Below, one piece after another: positions 5,639 through 22,547 of a stretch of DNA of 22,547 nucleotides. Origin of the DNA: a virus. Each line of letters opens with the position of its first letter. Position 1 is the stretch's first letter. A program made the position numbers and the translations under genes. The notes under the pieces were generated by a model. The model was not told where the DNA came from, made no database searches, and saw nothing but the letters and a program-made list of their open reading frames with translations. Where the stretch lies: IMG/VR virus record IMGVR_UViG_3300032242_000905, positions 1 through 22,547 of that record. One strand, given 5' to 3'.

Positions 5639-5653
5639 ATTGCCGTTAATAAT

Positions 5654-5692
5654 ATACTATTATACTGAATTGACGAACATAAATAATAGTAT
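5654..5692 (+). promoter_or_regulatory. Inverted repeat burying the endonuclease start codon, with late-promoter-like motif
   Basis: ATACTATTAT (5654-5663) is perfectly complementary to ATAATAGTAT (5683-5692), with a 19-nt loop. The ATG at 5691-5693 is in the 3' arm, so a transcript read through from upstream could fold and hide the start. CATAAATA (5678-5685; 7 of 8 matches to the T4 late octamer TATAAATA) lies in the loop and 3' arm. RNA begun from it would lack the 5' arm and start at about the ATG itself. T4 intron endonuclease genes are known to use a sequestering hairpin plus an internal late promoter; the parallel here is inference. Confidence 0.5.
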
Positions 5693-6476
5693 GAACAAAT
5701 ATTTAAACTGGTATGATAGTATCATCGCAAACGGCAAAACACAAAGAGAACATGGATATGAATGCCATCATATTCTACCAAAGAGTCTTGGCGGAACAGA
5801 TATAAAATCTAATTTAGTGTATATTACAGCAAGAGAACATTTTATATGTCATTGGTTACTGACTAAAATATATCCTACAGGTGAAGAACATTGGAAAATG
5901 CTAAACGCACTAAGGATGATGCGGGCTGAAAATAAAAATCAACAAAGATATCAAACAAAAATAACTTCAAGAGTTTACGCAAAACTTAAAGAAGAATATT
6001 CTCAAATGCAAAGTGAAAGGTATAATGGAGAAAATAACCCAATGTACGGTGATAAATTTTATCGTAGTGAAGAAGGATTTAAAAAACAAAAAGAAGCAGT
6101 TACTGGTGATAAAAATGGATCAAAACAAATAGATGCTAGGAGAAAAATCTCTGAATCAAAACTTGGTAAAAAACGAGATTCTTTTAGTGAAGAATGGAAA
6201 CAAAATATCGCAAAAGCAGTAACTGGCGACAACAACGGAATGTTTGGTAAGAAGCATAGTGAAGAAACTAAGATTAAGCAACGTGAAAAGGCAATAGGAA
6301 GAAAACAATCATCGGAAACTATTGCTAAAAAAGCAGAAGCAATTAGAGGATCAAAACGTGAAAAGAAACATTGTCCACATTGTGGCAAACAAGTCGCAGT
6401 CAATGGTTACGCAAGATGGCACGGTGATAACTGCAAGATACTATTCTTCAATAATGATAAATACTCAATAAGATAA
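5691..6476 (+). CDS. HNH homing endonuclease with NUMOD3 repeats
   Basis: 261-residue free-standing homing endonuclease, which makes a site-specific double-strand cut so that the gene is copied into genomes lacking it. The HNH nuclease core lies at about residues 23-55: YECHHILPKSLGG (23-35; His26, His27), Asn41 in NLVYIT, His50 and His54 in REHFICH. NUMOD3-type DNA-binding repeats follow, at NGENNPMYG (112-120), around TGDKNGSKQ (138-146), and most clearly NNGMFGKKHSEETK (181-194). The C-terminus has a zinc-ribbon-like cluster: Cys228, Cys231, His244, Cys248. I chose ATG 5691, where the endonuclease-like sequence begins; an in-frame TTG at 5640 would start in the terminator tail. There is no clear Shine-Dalgarno sequence. 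The gene is Lys-rich and more AT-rich than the capsid gene, consistent with transfer. The target site is unknown. Confidence 0.92.
   Translation: MNKYLNWYDSIIANGKTQREHGYECHHILPKSLGGTDIKSNLVYITAREHFICHWLLTKIYPTGEEHWKMLNALRMMRAENKNQQRYQTKITSRVYAKLKEEYSQMQSERYNGENNPMYGDKFYRSEEGFKKQKEAVTGDKNGSKQIDARRKISESKLGKKRDSFSEEWKQNIAKAVTGDNNGMFGKKHSEETKIKQREKAIGRKQSSETIAKKAEAIRGSKREKKHCPHCGKQVAVNGYARWHGDNCKILFFNNDKYSIR
6456..6463 (+). promoter_or_regulatory. T4-late-promoter-like octamer GATAAATA before the fibre cluster
   Basis: GATAAATA, 7 of 8 matches to the T4 late octamer, lies inside the 3' end of the endonuclease gene. A start about 6 nt downstream would give a leader of about 20 nt containing AAGG (6480-6483) before ATG 6489. 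It is a plausible entry point for transcription of the whole fibre block, which otherwise lies behind a terminator. Confidence 0.35.
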
Positions 6477-8617: not shown

Positions 8618-10576
8618 ATGTCACTAAAAAACTTCAACGTACAGAACGGTCTTTCAGTAAACGATGTCCAAGTCGTAGACAGTAATGCCAACGTAATTGC
8701 TAATGCATTAATATCTAATACATTTGTTAGTACTAATAATTCTAATATAACATTGAATCCTAACGGTACCGGTGTTATTGATGTAAGTAATAAAAAGATT
8801 AGTAATCTAGCAGAACCAGAAGCCCCAGGAGATGCTGCAACAAAACGTTATGTTGATGGTGTAGCACAAGGATTAAATCTACATATTCCAGCACAAGCCG
8901 GAACACCGGGTCTAAGCCTAGCAACAATAACAGGCGGGTCAGTATTATATAATAATGGTACAAATGGATATAATGCAACACTAACATTAAGTGTGGCATT
9001 AACAATGTTAGATGGTTATACTATTCAACCGCAAGACCGACTATTAATTAAAGATGAATCTGACCAAACAACTAACGGTATCTATACAATAGATCCTACA
9101 TTCAAAATATTAACACGTGCGTTAGACACAGACCAAACAGTTGAACTTGACGGTGGTGACTTTGTATTCGTGCAATCAGGTAATACGTTAAAAGCAACAG
9201 GATGGGTACAAACAACACGTGTAGTTGTAATAGGGACTAACAACATAGTATGGGAACAGTTTAGTGGTACAGGTGCAGCCGCAACCACAGTTAGTGCTAA
9301 TGTAGGTGATATTACTATAACAGGTGGGACAACAGATTACGTGTTGGCTGCTACTAATAATTCAGGTGGACTACATTATGCTAACATCGCAAACTACTTT
9401 TTAGTTACATCAAATATCAGTACTGTTGTTGCCGGATCAACTCTTGCTTTTACAGTAGATTATGCAAATGCAAGTTACCCAGGTGGCATATACACATTAA
9501 AGCAATTAGGCCCTGTAAGTCTATCAATATCAGACCAATGGTCTATTGGAGGATCTTTAGTAGGAACAACTAAAAATGCATATGCTAATTATGTAGCAAA
9601 TACAGTTAATACTGCAAATGTATCTATTACAGTTAGTTTGGCTAATGCTAAGTTTAATATACAATCCACTGATACTTTACAAATCGGTAGTACAACACTA
9701 ACCGGTACTCAGTTATTGGGAATTTATAACTTAAACGGTATCACACCTTCAAATGGCTATGCAAATGCTACGTTCACTATACCAAGTACGAGTCTAAATG
9801 CTAGTGTGCAAGCAGGTAATTTATCTACTGTAAATAACACAGTACTTGCTAATTTGACTAATGACAGAGGAACATTTGGTGCAAATATAAACACAGCATC
9901 GGGTACAACATTAGTATCTACTGCACCTATTGCATATAGTTTAAATTCTATATCAGGTAATTTCCCAAGTAGCAGTATACCATATTGGAATTTAAATCAA
10001 ACATTCAACTGGTCAGTAAGTACAACAGGCACTACAAGTGCAGGTAACCTAACGTATAGTGGTGGTGCAATAAGTACTACAAGTTTGTCAAGTACAGGAG
10101 GTGCTAGTGGTACTAGTGGAAGCATAGATAGTACAAGTAGTTATACAATAACAACTAGTGATTATTATGGAGCAGGGTTGAATGGTTATGGCAACAGAAC
10201 TATTCCTAGTACAGTTAACGGCACAGTAAATTCAGCAACTAAATATTATCCTCTATTCTGGAAAATAACAAATAACAATAGTCTACCATCATTTGCTGTA
10301 TCCGATAGTCGTAATAGTAACAACTACGTTACTGGACAAGGTGCAACTACATCAACTACTGCAAGTAACTATCTATGGTTAGCAATTACAAATTCAGGTA
10401 ATGCATCGCCATTAGCAAGTCATACATTTAAGCATGTGTTTGGTGGATTTGACATCGTTGATTCTCCTTCAGTTTCAGGAACGCAGACTATCACCTCAAG
10501 TGGACAAAGTTATAACTATTCAATTTATGGTTTTAGTGGATTCACAACGGCATCATTTATTTTAACAACATCATAA
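8618..10576 (+). CDS. Tail-fibre-like protein with DAATK-YVD module and large C-terminal domain
   Basis: 652 residues. The N-terminal cap (FNVQNGLSVNDVQVVDSNAN) resembles that of the 195-residue protein (YFNVRQGLQTGN). A module at about 40-220 carries ISNLAEPEAPGDAATKRYVD (DAATK from residue 72), then DGYTIQPQDRLLIKDESDQT, NGIYTID, GGDFVFVQSGN and GWVQTT. A diverged copy lies in the 1691-residue protein, and DAATK-YVD is a motif I recognise from phage tail proteins in general. Residues about 268-652 form a large Ser/Thr/Tyr-rich domain (from VVAGSTLAFTVDYANASYPG) that recurs in the last gene; it is my candidate receptor-contact region. The gene lacks a clear Shine-Dalgarno sequence and follows the previous stop by 12 nt. 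Confidence 0.8.
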   Translation: MSLKNFNVQNGLSVNDVQVVDSNANVIANALISNTFVSTNNSNITLNPNGTGVIDVSNKKISNLAEPEAPGDAATKRYVDGVAQGLNLHIPAQAGTPGLSLATITGGSVLYNNGTNGYNATLTLSVALTMLDGYTIQPQDRLLIKDESDQTTNGIYTIDPTFKILTRALDTDQTVELDGGDFVFVQSGNTLKATGWVQTTRVVVIGTNNIVWEQFSGTGAAATTVSANVGDITITGGTTDYVLAATNNSGGLHYANIANYFLVTSNISTVVAGSTLAFTVDYANASYPGGIYTLKQLGPVSLSISDQWSIGGSLVGTTKNAYANYVANTVNTANVSITVSLANAKFNIQSTDTLQIGSTTLTGTQLLGIYNLNGITPSNGYANATFTIPSTSLNASVQAGNLSTVNNTVLANLTNDRGTFGANINTASGTTLVSTAPIAYSLNSISGNFPSSSIPYWNLNQTFNWSVSTTGTTSAGNLTYSGGAISTTSLSSTGGASGTSGSIDSTSSYTITTSDYYGAGLNGYGNRTIPSTVNGTVNSATKYYPLFWKITNNNSLPSFAVSDSRNSNNYVTGQGATTSTTASNYLWLAITNSGNASPLASHTFKHVFGGFDIVDSPSVSGTQTITSSGQSYNYSIYGFSGFTTASFILTTS

Positions 10577-13343: not shown

Positions 13344-13375
13344 AATAAAAATAGCAATGGGGATTGTTTGGAACT

Positions 13376-13963
13376 ATGGCTAATAAGTATTTTAACGTAA
13401 GACAAGGTCTCCAGACCGGAAATATAACGTTAGACGCCACGACGGGAAATGCCAATGTAGGCAATTTGTCCACTACGGACTTGAACGTAGCTGGAAATGT
13501 AAATTCGAACCTAATACCAGGTGTGCCATCAGCACTTACACTAGGTACAGCATCAAGAAAATTCAAAGACTTATATCTATCAGGAAATATCAATCTTCCT
13601 GGTTCTCAATCCTTAACCGCTAATACAACTACTGCAATCTTCTCTGGAAATGTATATACTCCAGGAGCATTGACAGCAAATATTATACAAGCAAACACCG
13701 CAAATATAGACGGAACATTAACTGCAAATGCAATAAATGCTAACTCTATAACGGTTAATACTAAATTTACGCTAAATAGTAGTACAAATTCAACTTCTAC
13801 CGATACCGGTGCATTCACTACTACAGGTGGAGTTGGAGTACAAAAAGATATAACAGTGGGAGGAGCCATTAATTTGGCAAATTACGCAGTTACAGGGAGT
13901 GTAGTTAGAAGTAGCATCTACCATGATGATATGTCTAATTCGATAAGTTTTAAATTTAATTGA
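13376..13963 (+). CDS. Short tail-fibre-like protein
   Basis: 195-residue fibre-like protein. The N-terminus MANKYFNVRQGLQTGNITLD resembles that of the 652-residue protein. A segment LGTASRKFKDLYLSGNI is a familiar fibre motif, with Ala/Asn/Thr repeats after it. The C-terminus (TGAFTTTGGVGVQKDITVGG and ending ISFKFN) aligns with the C-terminus of the 1691-residue protein (TGAIRTTGGISAQGNIYAGH, ending LDFIFN). I chose ATG 13376; an in-frame TTG at 13364 would add four residues, but GGGGA at 13359-13363 sits directly against it, while it lies 12 nt before the ATG, a weak fit. It is followed 11 nt later by the LamG gene, just as the 1691-residue gene is followed by the 76-residue gene. Confidence 0.75.
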   Translation: MANKYFNVRQGLQTGNITLDATTGNANVGNLSTTDLNVAGNVNSNLIPGVPSALTLGTASRKFKDLYLSGNINLPGSQSLTANTTTAIFSGNVYTPGALTANIIQANTANIDGTLTANAINANSITVNTKFTLNSSTNSTSTDTGAFTTTGGVGVQKDITVGGAINLANYAVTGSVVRSSIYHDDMSNSISFKFN

Positions 13964-13974
13964 TAGGATAAAAT

Positions 13975-14865
13975 ATGTCGCAACCGACAACAATCGCAGC
14001 AAGATTATTAAATGATGGAACACTATATACAGTGGGTACATTTGATAATACTGGGCTTGTAAAGACAGGACATTCAATCACAAAAACTCATATTTTTGCA
14101 GATGACTTGGATGAACTAACATTAAGTACAGGAACCCCATCGGGAGGATCAGTACTATTAAACGGAACCTCCCAAAGAATTGAAGTTACTGGTACAGGTG
14201 ATTTTATGTTCGGTGAGGGTGACTTTACTATTGAAGGTTGGTTTTTATTAAATTCAACTGGATATACACGACTATGGTGTTTTCCAGACGGAGATAACGT
14301 AGAAGTTAATAATGGTGCTATGTACTATTGGAACGGTAGTAACCATGTTATCTCTGCTGGTGCAGGCACGGTACCGCAAGGGTTGTGGTTTCATGTAGCA
14401 TTAGTAAAACACAATAAAGTAGCCAATGTATACATTAATGGTGTTTCAGTTATAACTGATGTAAGCCCATATAATTCACTATCATCAAGAGCATTAGCAA
14501 TCGGTGGTGAAATCAGTGGTTTAGATAATGATGATAATCCAGCAACTCTTGGATGGTTGCATGGTAATGTAACAAATTTTCGTATAGTAAAAGGGTTTGC
14601 AGTATATACTAGTAATTTTAGTACTGCATATAATCCTCTTACTGTAATATCAAACACAGTTCTATTACTTAATGTAGTAGATTCTGGACACGTATTAACA
14701 GATGATTCAGGAAAGAATAGGTCTGTTAGCGCAGTGGGAGGTCCATTAACATATAGTGGTCTTACTCCATTAAGCACGTATTTCAACGGAGCAATGAAAC
14801 AATTAAAAAATGGTGCATTGCTATTAGCAAACGAGTTAGTTGAAACAAACTCAGTATTATCTTAA
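13975..14865 (+). CDS. LamG/concanavalin-like domain virion protein
   Basis: 296 residues. Positions about 55-260 form a LamG-type (Laminin_G_3, concanavalin-like jelly-roll) domain: GDFTIEGWFLLNSTGYTRLW (82-101), GLWFHVALVKHNKVANVYIN (136-155), GNVTNFRIVKGFAVYTSNF (197-215), then NPLTVISNTVLLL. Such domains bind glycans or proteins, which suits host-surface recognition; the ligand is unknown. The flanks (1-50, IAARLLNDGTLYTV to ADDLDELT; 273-296, AMKQLKNGALLLANELVE) match almost end to end the 76-residue protein at 19995, so the lectin-like domain looks inserted into a small pre-existing protein. AGGA at 13965-13968 precedes the ATG. The next gene is a fibre of the MAQLKDGTRVYG type. Domain call is strong; role inferred. 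Confidence 0.85.
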   Translation: MSQPTTIAARLLNDGTLYTVGTFDNTGLVKTGHSITKTHIFADDLDELTLSTGTPSGGSVLLNGTSQRIEVTGTGDFMFGEGDFTIEGWFLLNSTGYTRLWCFPDGDNVEVNNGAMYYWNGSNHVISAGAGTVPQGLWFHVALVKHNKVANVYINGVSVITDVSPYNSLSSRALAIGGEISGLDNDDNPATLGWLHGNVTNFRIVKGFAVYTSNFSTAYNPLTVISNTVLLLNVVDSGHVLTDDSGKNRSVSAVGGPLTYSGLTPLSTYFNGAMKQLKNGALLLANELVETNSVLS

Positions 14866-14907
14866 AAGTAATACATCAAAATTAAACATTCTTAAAGGAA
14901 AAATAAA

Positions 14908-17900
14908 ATGGCACAATTAAAAGACGGTACTAGAGTTTACGGTGATGCAACAGTCGACCAAACACTAACCGTAGGAAATATTTCGATTCTTGGTAACTTG
15001 ATCGTTAGCGGTACAACAACAACTGTTGATACAGAAGCAACTACGATTAAAGATCCATTAATTACATTAGGTGGAACCGCAAATGGTGGTCCTGCTGTCA
15101 ATGACGGTAAGGAACGCGGTCTTGTATTAAAATATAATGACGGAACTGCTAAAAACGGTTTCATAGGTTGGGACCATATTAATTCACAATTTGCATTAGC
15201 ATCTACTACTACATTTGATAGTGCAAATAACACAGTCACAATGGGAACATATGGTGATCTTAAAGCAGGCGTATACTATGGTAATGCTTATGGATTATCT
15301 CATATACAAGGTGGTAATGTTGATGGTACTGTTGCAAGTGCAAGTAGTGCTACAATAGCAGGTACAGTAACTGCAAGCGCACAGGGTAATATCACTAGTG
15401 TTGGTACATTAACAAGTTTAAGTATCGACGGTGGTAATTTAAGTGTTCAAAATGCAAGTATTACTACTAGCGGTAGCGTTACCGCAAACGGTAATCTAAT
15501 AATTGGTACAGTATCAGCGGCCAATAGTGTTGCAAATATTTACGGTGACTTAAACGTGACCGGTAACTTAAATGGTAGATTTACTGGTACTATCGGTGCT
15601 AAAGGTTCTAATACACATATTCAATTTAATGATGCCGGCAATCAAAACGGTGTTGCTGGATTCACGTTTGCTAAAACAACTAATACAGTAACAATCGGTA
15701 GTAAAATAACATTAGACGGTAATAATGGTAATGCTAATATTGCAGATTCAGTAAGATTTCAAAATGGTGGAATTGTTGGTGCTAATGTTCAAGGTCCAGG
15801 CAATGGGGTCGATTTATATGCACCTTCTGGATCAGACTATGTACAATTAAACTACAATGACACTAATTTTGTTTGGATAGATTCTAGCAAAATTTCACTA
15901 GATGCTTCCGGTCAATATTATGCTAACTTAAATACAGGCAATGGATTATTTGAAGTAACAAATACTTTTAGTGCAGTAAATGGTGACTTCGCTATTGATT
16001 CTGGTGCAAATGTAAATGCAGTGGGTTATGGCAGTTTTGCTGAAGTATATATTACTAATGCAATCGGTAGCGGCGGCCAAATTACTTATATTAATGGTTC
16101 AGACGGAAAAATCGACGGTGATAGTAATTTTACATACACTACTGGAACAAGTACACTAGCTACTCCAAATATTAATGTATCAGGTAATGCAAATATTCAA
16201 GGTAACATTACAACTAAGTTTACAGGTGCTAATTTATTATCTACTGACAATACTGGTAATGTTATTGATTCTGGTGTGTCGTTAGCAGGTGGTGCTTTAA
16301 CTACTGGTAAACTAAAAATCACTAGTTTAACAAACACTGGTTCATTATTATTCACTAAAGATAATAGTGGTAATGTTACAGAAGATTCAGGATTAACATA
16401 TTCTGCAAATACATTAACTGCTAATAATATCACTACAACAGGTACTGCTCAGGCTGCTAATTTAGTCGTTACTAGTTTAACAACAAACGAAGTTCCTTAT
16501 TCTGACGGTACTGGAAAAATATTAGGTACATCAAGTTTCACTTATACTCCTGGTACAAGCACATTAGCTGCTAATAACTTTAGTGCGACTGCTGATATTA
16601 CTGCAACAGGAATGATTTCTGGCGGTAATGTTAAGTCAACTCACTTAATCAATACTGGTATTGTATTTGCTGGTACAGGTGGTGTATTAGAAAGTGATTC
16701 AGGCTTTAACTATGCAAGTAACACAGCAACTGCAAATAATTTCACCGCAGTAGGCATGATTTCTGGTGGCAATGTTAAGTCAACTCACTTAATCAATACT
16801 GGTGTTGTATTTGCTGGTACAGGTGGTGTACTAGAAAGCGATACTGGATTTAATTATTCAAGTAACATATTGACTGCTAATAACTTTACTGCAATGGGAA
16901 GCATTTATGCAAACTCTGGTACAGTTGGTGCAACATATGTAGCAGGTACATTAACAACTGCTGCTCAACCAAATGTAACATCAGTTGGTACATTGGCTAA
17001 CTTGACTGTATCAGGCAACGCTAATGTAGGTGGGTTATTAACTGATAATCTATACTATGCAAACGGCGTAACTTGGGATCTACAACAAGCGGCTGGTAAT
17101 AACAATGAGATTCAGTTCAATACTGGTGACAATTTTGATGCAAGTTCACACTTCACATTTGACCCAACAGCAGTAAGTGGTACTGGTAAATTAACAGTAA
17201 CAGGACAAGTAGATACAGGTTTAGTAACTGCCACAACAGGTAACATCACAACTGTAAATGCAACAACATTGAATGGTACAACAGGTAACATCACAACTGT
17301 AAATGCAACAACATTGAATGGTACAACAGGTAACATCACAACTGTAAATGCAACAACATTGAATGGTACAGATGCTAATCTTACTGGTACTGTAACTGCA
17401 CAAAATAAAGTACTAAGTTCTAGAGTAGAATCATTGGATAGTGTTGATTTAACATTAACTGTTAATGGTTCACATACTAATGGTAACATTGTATTGTTGC
17501 CAGGTAATGCCAACGGTGTAGTTGAAGTTAGTGGTGCAAAGATTGTTAATCTTAAAGATCCAGAAAATGACCAAGATGCAGCAACAAAGTATTATGTTGA
17601 CCATGTTGCTCAAGGTCTACACGTTCATGCTCCTTGTGCAGTCGCAACAAAAACTAATCTATCATCATTCACATTATCTAGTCCATATGTAATTGATGGT
17701 TGGACACTACAAGATAAAGACCGTGTTCTTGTTAAAGACCAAACAAATCAATGGGAAAACGGCATCTATGATTACAACAGTACTACCCATATATTATCAC
17801 GTTCTAGCGACAGTAATTCTGCTGCAGAATTTGCTGGTGGTGACTTTACTTTCGTTGTAAATGGTAGTACACAAGGTGATACAGGTTGGGTACAAACTGA

Positions 17901-19983
17901 AGTAACTACAGTTGGTGGTTTTGGTACTACAGATCCAATCATATTCCAACAGTTCTCTGGTGCAGGTTCTTATACTGCTGATACTGCTCATGGTATGTAT
18001 CTAAATGGTACTGTATTCCGTACTAAGATTGATCCGTATGTCGCTGCAGATATAGCAAACAGTGTTCCAGCAATGGGTACAATGGCTTATGATGGCATGG
18101 GTAATATTAAAGTTGCAGATAGCGCAGTATTCATTAGTCCAGATATCGGTAATGCAACTGGTTATAGTTTAACATTAACCGGCGATCTTGTAGCACATAA
18201 TGCTAACTTCGGTGGAACAGTATTCAGTAATGGTAACATTACATTAGGTAGTGGTTCATTTGTTAACGGTAACATTAATGGTAACATCAGTGGTAATATT
18301 ACAGTAACAGGTAGTCAAGGTGCATTACAATTTGCAAGTAATGCAAATACACTAACGTCAAGTACTAATCTAAACTTCTATACAGGTAACGTTACTTTAC
18401 AAGTTGGTAATGGTTCTACAACAGGTATCGTAGTTTCTAATTTACTAACAGGTACATTAACAACTGCTGCCCAGCCAAATATAACATCAGTTGGCACATT
18501 AAGTAGTTTAGCAGTATCAGGTAATGCTAATGTAGGTGGTTTAATTACTGATAGTCTATATCATGCTAACGGTGCGGTATGGGACTTTGCTACTGCAAAT
18601 GGCGCTGCAGGTGAAATTCAATTCAGTAACGGTACTGACTTAGCAAGCAATGCAAGTTTCACATTCAATAATTCTACAGGCGCAATGAATGTTCCTGGTG
18701 ATATTATTACTGGTTCTGGTTCAGGTGGAAACATCACTGGTGCAGATTATGTAGTTGCTAACTATCTAACAGGTACATTAACAACTGCTTCTCAGCCAAA
18801 TGTAACATCAGTTGGTACATTGGGTAGTTTAAATGTAACAAATAATATTACATCAATATCAGGTTCAATTCTTGCAGGTACTATTGGTAATGCTACTACA
18901 ATGTTATATGGTAATGGTTATAATATTACTGGTGTAACTGCTAGTTCAATGAATGCTAATAACTTAACTGGTACAACATTAGCAGCCGGAGTAACAAGTT
19001 CTAGTTTAACTAGTGTTGGTACATTAGGTAACTTAACAGTAACCGGTGATATCACATCTACTACAGGTAAAGTACTTGCAGGTCAAATTGGTAATGCATC
19101 ATCATATCTATATGGTGATGGTTCAAATATCTCTAGTATTACTGGTGCTAATGTAACCGGTTATGTACCAAATGCAAATATTGCAAATGTCGCATACGCA
19201 GTAAGCGGTGCTAACATTACAGGTACTTCATTAAACAGTAGTGTCGTAACTTCTAGTTTAACTAGTGTTGGTACATTAGGTAACTTAACTGTAACAGGTA
19301 ATATTACATCTACTACAGGTACAGTGCTTGCAGGTAATATCGGTAATGCTACTACAATGTTATATGGTAATGGTTATAATATTACTGGTGTAACTGCTAG
19401 TTCAATGAATGCTAATAACCTAACTGGTACAACATTAGCATCCAGTGTTGTACATAGTAGTTTAACTGATTTAGGTACATTGACTGCATTGACAGTAAAT
19501 GGTTTAACTAACTTAGGTGATATCGGTAATGTTGAAATTGACGGTGGTTCTTCTGGTCAATATCTACAAACTGATGGTTATGGAAACTTAAGTTGGTCAA
19601 CTATTGACTTGTCAATGATTGATAACGGTACAAGTAACGTAGCAGTGGCTAACAACGGCAACGTAACTGTTGGTATTGCTGGTACACAGAATGTTATCAG
19701 TATCGCTACAACTGGTTTAACTGTAACAGGTATCATTAATGCTTCTGGAAATATTGTTGGTAACAACATTACTTCTAACAATTACTTAGTTGTTAGTGGT
19801 ACAGCAGATGCAACAAGTGCTATCACAGGCGCAATTAGAACTACTGGCGGTATTTCTGCTCAAGGTAATATTTACGCAGGTCATGCAATTGGTTTCGCTA
19901 ACGGTTCTGGTGGTAGTACTAGTAGTGCTGCATTTATTCAATATAACTCGACTGCAGGTAGTTTAGACTTCATCTTCAATTAA
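14908..19983 (+). CDS. Giant tail-fibre-like repeat protein
   Basis: 1691 residues, the largest gene here. N-terminus MAQLKDGTRVYGDATVDQTL matches the last gene in the window. Next is the IKDPLITLGG module (from residue 47; RGLVLKYND, FIGWDHINSQFA). A 48-55-residue repeat runs four times around 16300-16899. The TDNLYYANGVTWD module occurs at about 17040 and again near 18545. Three identical 15-residue repeats lie at 17236-17370. A DAATKYYVD module (from residue 890; VIDGWTLQDKDRVLVKDQTN, GGDFTFVVNGS) follows, then further QPN-TSVGTL shaft units and a pair of near-identical segments 456 bp apart. The C-terminus is TGAIRTTGGISAQGNIYAGH, ending DFIFN. AAAGGA (14894-14899) lies 8 nt before ATG. 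It is probably a long trimeric fibre or a length-defining structural protein; no enzyme motif is seen. Confidence 0.8.
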   Translation: MAQLKDGTRVYGDATVDQTLTVGNISILGNLIVSGTTTTVDTEATTIKDPLITLGGTANGGPAVNDGKERGLVLKYNDGTAKNGFIGWDHINSQFALASTTTFDSANNTVTMGTYGDLKAGVYYGNAYGLSHIQGGNVDGTVASASSATIAGTVTASAQGNITSVGTLTSLSIDGGNLSVQNASITTSGSVTANGNLIIGTVSAANSVANIYGDLNVTGNLNGRFTGTIGAKGSNTHIQFNDAGNQNGVAGFTFAKTTNTVTIGSKITLDGNNGNANIADSVRFQNGGIVGANVQGPGNGVDLYAPSGSDYVQLNYNDTNFVWIDSSKISLDASGQYYANLNTGNGLFEVTNTFSAVNGDFAIDSGANVNAVGYGSFAEVYITNAIGSGGQITYINGSDGKIDGDSNFTYTTGTSTLATPNINVSGNANIQGNITTKFTGANLLSTDNTGNVIDSGVSLAGGALTTGKLKITSLTNTGSLLFTKDNSGNVTEDSGLTYSANTLTANNITTTGTAQAANLVVTSLTTNEVPYSDGTGKILGTSSFTYTPGTSTLAANNFSATADITATGMISGGNVKSTHLINTGIVFAGTGGVLESDSGFNYASNTATANNFTAVGMISGGNVKSTHLINTGVVFAGTGGVLESDTGFNYSSNILTANNFTAMGSIYANSGTVGATYVAGTLTTAAQPNVTSVGTLANLTVSGNANVGGLLTDNLYYANGVTWDLQQAAGNNNEIQFNTGDNFDASSHFTFDPTAVSGTGKLTVTGQVDTGLVTATTGNITTVNATTLNGTTGNITTVNATTLNGTTGNITTVNATTLNGTDANLTGTVTAQNKVLSSRVESLDSVDLTLTVNGSHTNGNIVLLPGNANGVVEVSGAKIVNLKDPENDQDAATKYYVDHVAQGLHVHAPCAVATKTNLSSFTLSSPYVIDGWTLQDKDRVLVKDQTNQWENGIYDYNSTTHILSRSSDSNSAAEFAGGDFTFVVNGSTQGDTGWVQTEVTTVGGFGTTDPIIFQQFSGAGSYTADTAHGMYLNGTVFRTKIDPYVAADIANSVPAMGTMAYDGMGNIKVADSAVFISPDIGNATGYSLTLTGDLVAHNANFGGTVFSNGNITLGSGSFVNGNINGNISGNITVTGSQGALQFASNANTLTSSTNLNFYTGNVTLQVGNGSTTGIVVSNLLTGTLTTAAQPNITSVGTLSSLAVSGNANVGGLITDSLYHANGAVWDFATANGAAGEIQFSNGTDLASNASFTFNNSTGAMNVPGDIITGSGSGGNITGADYVVANYLTGTLTTASQPNVTSVGTLGSLNVTNNITSISGSILAGTIGNATTMLYGNGYNITGVTASSMNANNLTGTTLAAGVTSSSLTSVGTLGNLTVTGDITSTTGKVLAGQIGNASSYLYGDGSNISSITGANVTGYVPNANIANVAYAVSGANITGTSLNSSVVTSSLTSVGTLGNLTVTGNITSTTGTVLAGNIGNATTMLYGNGYNITGVTASSMNANNLTGTTLASSVVHSSLTDLGTLTALTVNGLTNLGDIGNVEIDGGSSGQYLQTDGYGNLSWSTIDLSMIDNGTSNVAVANNGNVTVGIAGTQNVISIATTGLTVTGIINASGNIVGNNITSNNYLVVSGTADATSAITGAIRTTGGISAQGNIYAGHAIGFANGSGGSTSSAAFIQYNSTAGSLDFIFN
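16612..16899 (+). repeat. Two tandem 144-bp coding repeats
   Basis: Copies at 16612-16755 and 16756-16899 each encode 48 residues beginning MISGGNVKSTHLINTG and containing VFAGTGGVLESD. The first two thirds are nearly identical in DNA; the last third has diverged more. Older, diverged relatives lie just upstream, around SLTNTGSLLFTKDNSGNV and VPYSDGTGKILGTSSFTY. Confidence 0.9.
17236..17370 (+). repeat. Three exact tandem 45-bp repeats
   Basis: Units 17236-17280, 17281-17325 and 17326-17370 are identical base for base, each encoding TGNITTVNATTLNGT in frame. Perfect identity contrasts with the synonymous divergence of all other repeats here and points to very recent expansion, or to an assembly artefact. 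Confidence 0.95.
18886..19439 (+). repeat. Near-identical direct repeat pair, 456 bp apart
   Basis: 18886-18963 and 19342-19419 (78 bp) are identical, and the match continues with one mismatch for about 20 bp more. Both encode NATTMLYGNGYNITGV followed by TASSMNANNLTGTTLA. The 152-residue period encloses a second unit with SSLTSVGTLGNLTVTG, also duplicated. Confidence 0.88.
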
Positions 19984-19989
19984 GGAGAT
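19982..19989 (+). promoter_or_regulatory. Strong Shine-Dalgarno sequence of the 76-residue gene
   Basis: AAGGAGAT lies 5 nt before ATG 19995, a stronger ribosome-binding site than any other in the fibre block. It suggests the small protein is needed in quantity. Confidence 0.7.
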
Positions 19990-19994
19990 AGGTC

Positions 19995-20225
19995 ATGACA
20001 ACTAACGTCGCGGCTAGACTAGACAGATCCGGAAAGTTCTACACCAGAAATGGTGTAGTTCTTGACGAGATTACTCAGACAACTCACAGCATTACTCCAA
20101 CAAGAGTTAATGCAGGTGAGTTTGATGAGGTGTCAGGAACATTGAATAATAGAGTAATGCAACAATTGAAAACGGGTAAACTTATTATTTCAGGAGTTTT
20201 TGACGAGGTGTCTGGAATATCATAA
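19995..20225 (+). CDS. Small protein, domain-less paralogue of the LamG protein
   Basis: 76 residues of unknown function. VAARLDRSGKFYTRNGVV, then TTHSITPTRVNAGEFDEVSG, aligns with residues 7-50 of the LamG protein (IAARLLNDGTLYTV, GHSITKTHIFADDLDELT). VMQQLKTGKLIISGVFDEV aligns with its residues 273-291 (AMKQLKNGALLLANELVE). The ~220 residues between are absent. FDEVSG occurs twice within this protein, at each end of the junction region, and LDEL/NELVE sit at the equivalent sites in the LamG protein. It follows a fibre gene ending DFIFN and precedes one beginning MALLKSGTRIYG. A connector, cap or chaperone for the adjacent fibre is a possible role; this is inference. Confidence 0.8.
   Translation: MTTNVAARLDRSGKFYTRNGVVLDEITQTTHSITPTRVNAGEFDEVSGTLNNRVMQQLKTGKLIISGVFDEVSGIS
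20039..20058 (+). other. 8-bp hairpin with GAAA loop inside the 76-residue gene
   Basis: CTACACCA (20039-20046), GAAA, TGGTGTAG (20051-20058). A perfect stem closed by a GNRA tetraloop, 42 nt downstream of the start codon, without a U-tract. It could be an mRNA structure affecting translation or stability, or an accident of the codons for YTRNGV. Confidence 0.4.
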
Positions 20226-20253: not shown

Positions 20254-22547
20254 ATGGCACTATTAAAATCAGGTACAAGAATATACGGTAACGCCACAAT
20301 AGACACTAATCTGTCTATTGATGGTAACACCGTATCCTCTAATTACCAGTCAGGTGCATTAGTTGTTGCAGGTGGTGTTGGCATTGGTGGTAATGTATTC
20401 ATCAATGGTAAACTAAATGCAAAAGATACACTAATTACAGGTAACTTAACAGTTACTGGTGTAACCACAACTGTAAATTCTACCACTACTCAAATAGAAG
20501 ATGCTGTCATTGATTTGGGTGCAGGTGAGAATGGTAACACACTTACTACAGATGACGGTGTATCTAGAGGTTTAGCATTAAATTACTTTAGTTCAGGTGC
20601 CAAAACAGCATTCTTAGGTTGGGACAATGCAAATTCACAGTTTGCATTTGGTAGCAATGTAGCAAATACTACCGGTGTATTACAAATAAATACATACGGT
20701 AATGTAAAGGCCAATACTTTCTTTGGTACTTTTTCAGGAATAGGAAATCTAAGCCAACTTACTGTTTCGGGTGTTACTAGATTAGGTAATGTCGGTAATG
20801 TTAAAATTACAGGCGGTGGGTTAGGTCAATATTTACAAACAGATGGTCAAGGTAATTTAACTTGGGTATCACCACAGACAACTAGTCCAGGTGGTTCTAA
20901 CAATCAAGTTCAATTTAATAGTAATGGGTCATTTGCAGGTAGCAGTAGTTTTACGTTTGATTCTTCAAACAATATACTAACAGTAGGTTATATAGTTGCA
21001 AATGGTTCTAGTTTAACAAGTATAACCGGTGCAAATGTAACTGGTACAGTCGCAAATGCAAACTACTCGATATATGCAGTAAATGCAGGTAATGCATATA
21101 ATGTATCTGGTTCTAATGTAACAGGTCAGGTAAGCAATGCACTAGTTGCTGGAACAGTATATACAAACGCACAACCAAATATCACAAGTGTTGGTACATT
21201 AGGTAATTTAAGTGTCACTGGTAATATTACATCAGGTAATATAAATGGTGGGAACTTAGTTGTTGCTAATTACTTTGTTGGTAACGGTAGTTTATTAACT
21301 AGTGTTACTGGTGCTAATGTAACAGGTACTGTAGCAAATGCAAACTATGCAACATATGCAGGTAATGCAACAGTTGCTGGAACTGTATATGCTAACTATC
21401 AGCCAAATATTACTGGTGTTGGTAATTTAAGCAATCTATTTGTTGGAAACACTACATCAAATGTAGTAATAGCAAACGGTAATGTTACTGCAACAGGTAA
21501 TTTATCTGTTACCGGTAATCTTTCTGCAGGGTATATAACTGGTAATGCTGCATATCTTACTGGATTAGCCGGATCTGGTAGTGCTACTGCAACATATGTA
21601 ACAAGTAATATTAGTACTGTAGTGGCAGGTAGCACAATAACAGTAGTAGCAGATTATGGTAATGCAAGTTATCCAGGTGGTGTGTTTACTATTGCACAAT
21701 TAGGTCCTGTAACATTAAGCACAACAGATATTTGGTATGGTGGTACATCAACTAAAAATGCATATGCAAACTATCTTGCAAGTTCTGTTAATACAAAAAA
21801 TGTTAATGTTACATTAACACTATCAAACGCTACATTTAACGTACAAAGTACTGATAGCATAACAATTGGTGGAAGTAGTATTACTGGTGCTAATTTATTA
21901 GCATTGAATATTAATGGTAACGGAACATATACTATACCAAATACATATTTCAGTAGTAGTGTTCAAACAACCACAACAAGTTCTGTAAGTTTAAGTTTAA
22001 CTACAAGTAGAGGTGTTTATACATCCACTGGAACTACATTAACTGCTACTCAACCAGTAGCATTCACATTAAATGCAATAACAGGAAGTTTCCCAAGTAG
22101 TTCAGTTCCATACTTTGACTTGAATCAAAGTTTCAACTGGAGTACAAGTATAACTGGTACAGTTAGTTCTGGTAATCTAACATATAGTGGTGGTTTAATA
22201 AGCACAACTAGTTTGACTAGTTCAGGTGCAACAAGCGGTAGTAGCAGTAGTATTGATAGTACGTATAGTTATACATTAACTACTAGTGATTATACTGGTG
22301 CTGGATTATATGGTTATGGTACTAGAGTAATCCCAAGTACTGTAAACGGTACTATTTCTGCTGCAACTAAATATTATCCAGTATTCTATAAAATAACAAG
22401 TAGTGCAACACCCCCAACATTTACTACCAGTGATAGTTATCTAACACATAATTATGTAACAGGCGACGGAGCAACTACTAGTTCAACTACTAGTCAATAT
22501 ACATGGATCGCTATTCCTGGTGTAGCAAGTCATACATTTGCTTATAC
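20254..22547 (+). CDS. Tail-fibre-like modular protein (3' truncated by window edge)
   Basis: 764 codons are open to the right edge. It starts MALLKSGTRIYGNATIDTNL, like the 1691-residue protein, then SGALVVAGGVGIGGNVFING, a familiar fibre motif, and the QIEDAVIDLGAG version of the DPLITLGG module (from residue 81; RGLALNYF, FLGWDNANSQFA). Shaft units include NAQPNITSVGTL and NYFVGNGSLLTSVTGANVTG, closest to the 921-residue protein. From residue 454 (STVVAGSTITVVADYGNASY) to the edge it is homologous to residues 268 onward of the 652-residue protein, with NAYANYLASSVNTKNV and FPSSSVPYFDLNQSFNWS conserved. By that alignment only some tens of residues should be missing. The Shine-Dalgarno is weak; ATG 20254 is chosen by homology to MAQLKDGTRVYG. 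Confidence 0.82.
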   Translation, partial: MALLKSGTRIYGNATIDTNLSIDGNTVSSNYQSGALVVAGGVGIGGNVFINGKLNAKDTLITGNLTVTGVTTTVNSTTTQIEDAVIDLGAGENGNTLTTDDGVSRGLALNYFSSGAKTAFLGWDNANSQFAFGSNVANTTGVLQINTYGNVKANTFFGTFSGIGNLSQLTVSGVTRLGNVGNVKITGGGLGQYLQTDGQGNLTWVSPQTTSPGGSNNQVQFNSNGSFAGSSSFTFDSSNNILTVGYIVANGSSLTSITGANVTGTVANANYSIYAVNAGNAYNVSGSNVTGQVSNALVAGTVYTNAQPNITSVGTLGNLSVTGNITSGNINGGNLVVANYFVGNGSLLTSVTGANVTGTVANANYATYAGNATVAGTVYANYQPNITGVGNLSNLFVGNTTSNVVIANGNVTATGNLSVTGNLSAGYITGNAAYLTGLAGSGSATATYVTSNISTVVAGSTITVVADYGNASYPGGVFTIAQLGPVTLSTTDIWYGGTSTKNAYANYLASSVNTKNVNVTLTLSNATFNVQSTDSITIGGSSITGANLLALNINGNGTYTIPNTYFSSSVQTTTTSSVSLSLTTSRGVYTSTGTTLTATQPVAFTLNAITGSFPSSSVPYFDLNQSFNWSTSITGTVSSGNLTYSGGLISTTSLTSSGATSGSSSSIDSTYSYTLTTSDYTGAGLYGYGTRVIPSTVNGTISAATKYYPVFYKITSSATPPTFTTSDSYLTHNYVTGDGATTSSTTSQYTWIAIPGVASHTFAY

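Follow-up and report, generated by a model that had tools for sequence, protein, structure and literature searches.

The gp38 gene comes after a fibre gene. In phages T2, PP01 and S16, gp38 is a small adhesin at the tip of the long tail fibre, where it docks via its N-terminal part on gp37 and varies in its receptor-binding part (PMC12892980). At the tip of T4 gp37, a 'tip' subdomain is inserted in a 'stem' subdomain (PMC6957217), and Alteromonas phages A5 and V22 encode, together with the fibre, small fibre-specific proteins described as transient chaperone caps and proposed to cap its tip (PMC10579305). Fibre-tip proteins with exchangeable binding parts are already known; what is new here is a short repeat module, the way in which domains are inserted at its joints, and its genomic address. 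We describe this module in IMG/VR virus record IMGVR_UViG_3300032242_000905, of which positions 1 to 22,547 were analysed (22,547 nucleotides, hereafter the window). Two genes on the plus strand carry it: one encodes a small protein of 76 residues that is a bare module (19995..20225), the other a large protein of 296 residues in which the module is split by a laminin G (LamG) domain (13975..14865).

A three-unit module, bare or split by a LamG domain

Both open reading frames (ORFs) are present as predicted by a first-pass annotation of this DNA, which had also proposed that the small protein matches the large one at its two ends only. Pairwise BLASTP agreed, aligning the N flanks with 17/45 identities (E 2e-6) and the C flanks with 7/15 (E 0.003), with no significant match between the two flanks; in a search of the whole record, the N-terminal match was the sole other match (E 5.6e-5). 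Single-sequence searches of IMG/VR returned only three and one relatives, and alignment-based queries were needed to assemble families of 19 small and 22 large proteins, the window's own counted in. When profiles of these families were compared by hhalign, the N flank of the large protein (residues 1-55, 13975..14139) matched the N part of the small one over 45 columns with a score of 96.0 (P 6.7e-22; best of 60 column shuffles 15.6), and the C flank (residues 271-296, 14785..14862) matched the small C part over 25 columns with a score of 40.3 (P 8.4e-11; shuffle maximum 16.1, 60 shuffles). A separate profile, built from 12 bare modules and two N-terminal modules (those of Synechococcus phage S-SRM01 and of L025; L numbers are our labels), was run against whole contigs. 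In six contigs of 65-223 kb it recovered the flanks of the large protein as separate matches (N flank, E 5e-14 to 2e-6; C flank, E 2e-7 to 3e-4) and no unexplained third site; in a contig of 367 kb the N flank alone passed. Chance as the source of the short C-terminal match is ruled out by the column shuffles together with these separate whole-contig matches, and the independent homology of both flanks is beyond doubt.

The small protein consists of three copies of a unit of ~20 residues, which looks beta-rich and roughly follows the pattern xRLxxxGxLyxxGxFDEvt (unit 1, residues ~1-27; unit 2, ~28-49, the least regular; unit 3, ~55-76). The C-terminal unit matches unit 1: profile scores against the N flank of the large protein were 27.0 for the large C flank and 24.4 for the small C part, with shuffle maxima of 12.0 and 12.2. 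In the large protein, the N flank corresponds to units 1 and 2, the C flank to unit 3, and the LamG domain lies between units 2 and 3. The idea of a small protein with two matching ends thus needed revision: the ends do match, but they are not distinct ends of one fold, and the C-terminal match, although real, comes from the short repeat of which the N part consists, present there in a third copy. We had considered that the small protein is one fold cut in two; this was dropped after the repeat test and the finding of relatives with multiple inserts, in favour of three units with joints.

The middle of the large protein (about residues 56-270, 14140..14784) is of the LamG type, as first annotated. 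It matches Pfam Laminin_G_3 at E 4e-9 with 37.2 bits, above the curated cut-off of 27.6, and Foldseek with its AlphaFold model returned pentraxin and laminin-G structures of the PDB (E about 1e-8 to 1e-6), in keeping with the beta-sandwich of LamG and concanavalin-A-like domains. Not all LamG domains are glycan binders; we infer that this one binds a surface glycan of the host.

Within the window's lineage the two forms are an ancient and fixed pair, and nothing has been swapped. Wherever a contig covers the region, the order of genes is short fibre, LamG protein, long fibre, bare protein, next fibre. The small-protein clade is bare in 19/19 cases and the large-protein clade has the LamG domain in 22/22, and in a tree of the joined flanks the bare and LamG forms are separate clades (support 99/98 and 98/99). 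An exchange of domains between the two proteins in this phage lineage was therefore not borne out. Since the tree is unrooted, besides having few columns, it gives no direction, entry or loss, for the LamG domain of the window pair. One fibre-plus-module unit seems to have been duplicated to give the two cassettes of this lineage, as in other lineages there is a single module gene per contig (contigs that may be incomplete).

Domains carried by the wider module family

Relatives beyond this lineage were sought with the N-terminus of the gene downstream of the bare module as bait. This gene (20254..22545, plus strand) is fibre-like, begins MALLKSGTRIYGNA, extends past the window end and is a conserved downstream neighbour. 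A profile of 33 modules matched about 80 distinct ORFs, some truncated, at E below 1e-3; some of the following counts take in weakly scored ORFs. Bare modules make up 24 distinct proteins from several lineages. The module is followed by a C-terminal domain in about 11 proteins and preceded by a domain in 3; in L184, L192 and L195 it is C-terminal, after a Gly-rich or unknown domain, so the protein start is not obligatory for it. Further architectures are a split between units 2 and 3 by a domain, in some cases with another domain at the C-terminus, a split after unit 1, and several domains parted by single units.

Units that lie like beads between domains, as in the multi-insert proteins L205, L213, L185 and L186, would also be expected if they were mere repetitive linkers or spacers between the globular domains of large adhesins, with the 76-residue protein a degenerate remnant that lacks its domains. 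We regard this as quite improbable, because a remnant would decay and bare modules are conserved: they persist in 19 clade members (23 invariant columns among the first 10 aligned), and a bare module is the only module gene found in the contigs of L157, L179, L197 and L214.

The domains borne by the module include, by Pfam, Laminin_G_3, Gly_rich_2 and BNR_2, and also a type represented by PHROG_5939 ('tail protein'). Relatives with different inserts at the same point, which the first-pass annotation had anticipated, do exist: the joint between units 2 and 3 holds LamG in the window's clade and in L189, L191 and L196, the PHROG_5939 type in L181 and L199, and BNR_2 plus LamG in L220. That annotation's picture of the small protein as an acceptor for swappable domains thus has support at this joint outside the window's lineage and none within it, where no swap was seen. 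The truncated ORF of L220 (1-2607) comprises a Gly-rich N part, units 1 and 2, a BNR_2 propeller-type region, LamG and unit 3, and is possibly a sialidase-like or glycan-processing tip protein. We rejected the notion that the PHROG_5939-type insert is a diverged LamG, as the two show no homology by profile (hhalign P 0.32) and no BLAST link; one member of this type gave a sub-threshold Laminin_G_3 match (E 0.0015), and a common beta-sandwich fold with LamG is possible.

Close relatives differ by the clean presence or absence of such domains. At the unit 2/3 joint L181 has about 180 residues that L180, which has no insert, lacks, and the genes upstream of the two are 86% identical and those downstream 73%; the pairs L025/L199 and L215/L196 likewise differ by a clean indel at this joint. 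L156 (292 residues) differs from L157 (75 residues) by a C-terminal LamG domain, and their downstream genes are 97% identical. The proposal that a small conserved protein is broken at a clean joint by a domain of the glycan-binding type is upheld.

Outside the window's lineage the module is present in many uncultured phages; S-SRM01 is the only isolated phage in which we found it, in gp332 (L092 5004-5864). The second domain of gp332, of ~210 residues, has a weak match to tail fibre proteins of Xanthomonas and Stenotrophomonas phages, with no match to a Pfam family and no recognised LamG. A tblastn search of 50,697 phage records with bare modules gave nothing significant; its one weak full-length match, to S-SRM01 (E 0.04), was first confirmed by a profile not containing S-SRM01 (iE 9e-6). 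When seven named phage records, four of them LamG-bearing cyanophages, were searched whole with the module profile, S-SRM01 alone had the module, and one scan of GTDB contigs of bacteria and archaea found no relative of it.

The family appears to be undescribed, as had been surmised. Searches found no Pfam family, no PDB relative by sequence and no significant PHROG profile of its own; a Pfam and PHROG scan of 20 members gave only weak single-member matches, one to a PHROG (0.0032) and one to Pfam (0.0093), and a few PHROG profiles of long tail proteins (e.g. PHROG 34853) overlap module units within longer proteins. No description of it turned up in the open-access literature on jumbo-phage LamG or swappable tip modules.

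Linkage to a fibre end and a proposed socket

The module gene lies directly downstream of a fibre gene, as the gp38 gene does. In the window, the bare module follows a long fibre-like gene of 1691 residues (14908..19983, plus strand), which begins MAQLKDGTRVYGDA and finishes ..SSAAFIQYNSTAGSLDFIFN; this C-terminus (..YIQFNATANSLDFIFN) immediately precedes the bare module in 20/20 contigs of the clade, with gaps of 8-16 bp. The LamG protein follows, after 11 bp, a short fibre-like gene (13364..13963, plus strand, start probably the ATG at 13376) with the C-terminus ..SIYHDDMSNSISFKFN, and each large homologue examined sits directly downstream of such a gene. Beyond the clade, S-SRM01 gp332 sits after a gene ending ..NSLDFIFI, a 1616-residue multi-LamG protein after one ending ..GSLDTVFG, and the L026 protein, with one unit recognisable by eye, after one ending ..NSLDTVWV.

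We quantified this linkage in 80 loci fetched via the N-terminus of the downstream gene, so that neither partner was used, and then removed duplicates. Signature fibre ends read ..NSLDFIFN or ..NSLDTVFG and were captured by the regular expression ..SLD[FT].F, which does not cover the short-fibre variant ..SIDFKFN found before LamG forms; the expression was composed after examples had been seen, and the counts describe linkage and are not a blind test. The signature was present in 41/42 loci with a module in the middle gene versus 0/5 without one (Fisher P 4e-6). Among distinct ORFs with the signature, 52/54 are directly followed by a module gene, and the remaining two are still followed by a module or a partial unit. 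We delimit the three-unit module family by two features, profile matches to units 1-3 and location next to a fibre end ..SLD[FT].F, and both were found.

Because a conserved short module pairs strictly with one fibre end and carries variable binding-type domains, we propose, at a probability of a little under 0.6, that the module forms the part of a tip protein nearest the fibre, docked on the upstream fibre and displaying exchangeable binding domains. The module would be produced along with the fibre whose gene precedes it and dock on the C-terminal end of that fibre (signature ..N-S-L-D-F-I-F-N); whole extra domains would be tolerated at its ends and at the joints between units, and the domain set in or on the module would meet the host surface and contribute to host choice. 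In the window's lineage, the long fibre would carry the bare module as a plain cap, and the module of the short fibre would display LamG at the unit 2/3 joint for a host surface glycan. In related phages the single cassette has LamG, PHROG_5939-type, Gly_rich_2 or BNR domains, and since relatives carry different domains at the same joint, the locus may be a socket for exchangeable recognition domains. We put at about even the chances of the broader proposal, that this three-unit repeat is an undescribed adaptor, docked on a conserved end of the fibre and open at its joints and ends to whole binding domains that are unrelated to one another, and that many uncultured and often jumbo phages use it as a standard socket to alter their host recognition with the fibre untouched.

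Several results weigh against the tip-protein proposal. The insert is constant throughout the window's own clade. AlphaFold modelled the bare module poorly as a monomer (mean predicted local distance difference test, pLDDT, 45; predicted template modelling score, pTM, 0.16), and in its model of the large protein (pTM 0.71) the LamG part is better modelled and the flanks have a pLDDT of about 31-41; the poor result is compatible with an obligate oligomer and no proof of one. Linkage to the fibre end is also expected for simple co-expression or for a chaperone, and in the main rival reading the module is a folding chaperone dedicated to the upstream fibre, or a cap that it bears transiently, comparable to lambda Tfa, T4 gp38 or the Alteromonas caps, with LamG and other domains added later to aid folding or to persist as adhesins. 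A small gene strictly linked to, and directly downstream of, one fibre end fits this, and transient chaperone caps encoded with their fibre have precedent. We nevertheless consider it unlikely: a released chaperone would have no need of the large binding-type domains (LamG, Gly_rich_2, BNR_2) found fused to the module in many lineages, and the Pfam/PHROG scans found no homology to any known chaperone family, Tfa and gp57A types included.

The position of the cluster also counts against a fibre tip, for it comes after the head genes for portal, protease, scaffold and gp23, and one fibre neighbour matches PHROG 2647 'head decoration'. Tail whiskers, moreover, are known in jumbo phage CBB (PMC5259590). 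The proteins could accordingly be head-attached or tail-side 'whisker' fibres, the LamG form holding virions near particles or mucus-like glycans with no part in receptor choice. This too seems improbable to us, given that in one relative a tail sheath or sheath-stabiliser gene comes after the cluster, that the S-SRM01 module gene has baseplate wedge and tail fibre genes around it, and that several LamG relatives from cyanophages bear baseplate annotations. Judged by gene neighbourhood, the tail neighbours and the S-SRM01 context favour a tail or baseplate location; the head-type neighbour annotations do not.

If the module is indeed part of a tip protein, it would have practical use. The variable binding parts of receptor-binding proteins make these proteins difficult to spot in uncultured phages. 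With the conserved address (a fibre ending SLD[FT]xF, the module, then a gene starting MAxLxSGTRxYG) they can be searched for by sequence, and the binding domain employed by a given phage can be identified. The module also shows a scaffold, found in nature, into which a whole domain can be inserted at one joint.

Genome context and comparison with known systems

The window comes from an uncultured giant phage. Portal, protease, scaffold and gp23 genes of a T4-related phage come first, then a homing endonuclease and a series of fibre-like genes on a single strand. Identity in gp23 to jumbo myoviruses, for example Vibrio phage 2.275.O and Pseudomonas phages PA5oct and Paride, is 66-67%, and the closest contig with homologues of both the 76- and 296-residue proteins is 367 kb long. 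The endonuclease, of the NUMOD3/HNH type (5640-6476), immediately follows gp23, and Paride has a homing endonuclease in the same position, which may be a recurrent insertion site for such genes. Within the long fibre gene, at about 17200-17410, near-identical tandem repeats (..TGNITTVNATTLNG.. x3) occur, which the 367-kb relative has in other number and order, suggesting variation in fibre length. The fibre genes at 8618-10576 and 20254-22545 seemingly have a common type of C-terminal domain (..YNYSIYGFSGFTTASFILTTS; relatives ..YNIYGFTNFSVATALYTVT); the former is the neighbour that matches PHROG 2647, and it also matches PHROG 30390.

The closest named relatives by gp23, 2.275.O and PA5oct/Paride (Arenbergviridae), do not share the arrangement as far as compared: the whole-record profile search detected no module in 2.275.O or Paride, and their genes after gp23 differ from those of the window. 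LamG and concanavalin-A-like domains of cyanophage baseplate wedge and structural proteins belong to the same family as the insert (24-33% identical) but differ in context, since among the named records searched the module occurs only in S-SRM01, there without a recognised LamG. The T4 gp37 tip resembles the split module in being a receptor-binding tip inserted in a structural part (PMC6957217); unlike the module, it spans 28 residues of the same polypeptide as the fibre, with no separate gene and no known swap for unrelated domains. Compared with the Alteromonas A5 and V22 caps, the module is a repeat of beta-rich appearance and often fused to lectin-type domains.

A close parallel is gp38 of T2, PP01 and S16, like the module protein a small tip protein encoded after a fibre gene, although for the module the tip position is a deduction. 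Some module proteins further resemble gp38 in carrying Gly_rich_2 or matching PHROG 863 'tail fiber assembly' in their variable part; the PHROG 863 match is confined to the added Gly-rich part of L184 and L173, and the scan of 20 members found no homology of the module itself to gp38. The module's mode of action is most likely similar to that of T2 and S16 gp38, although the two are not homologous. The two differ in how they vary: gp38 changes loops in a poly-glycine-II sandwich (PMC12892980), whereas the module family inserts or fuses whole unrelated domains.
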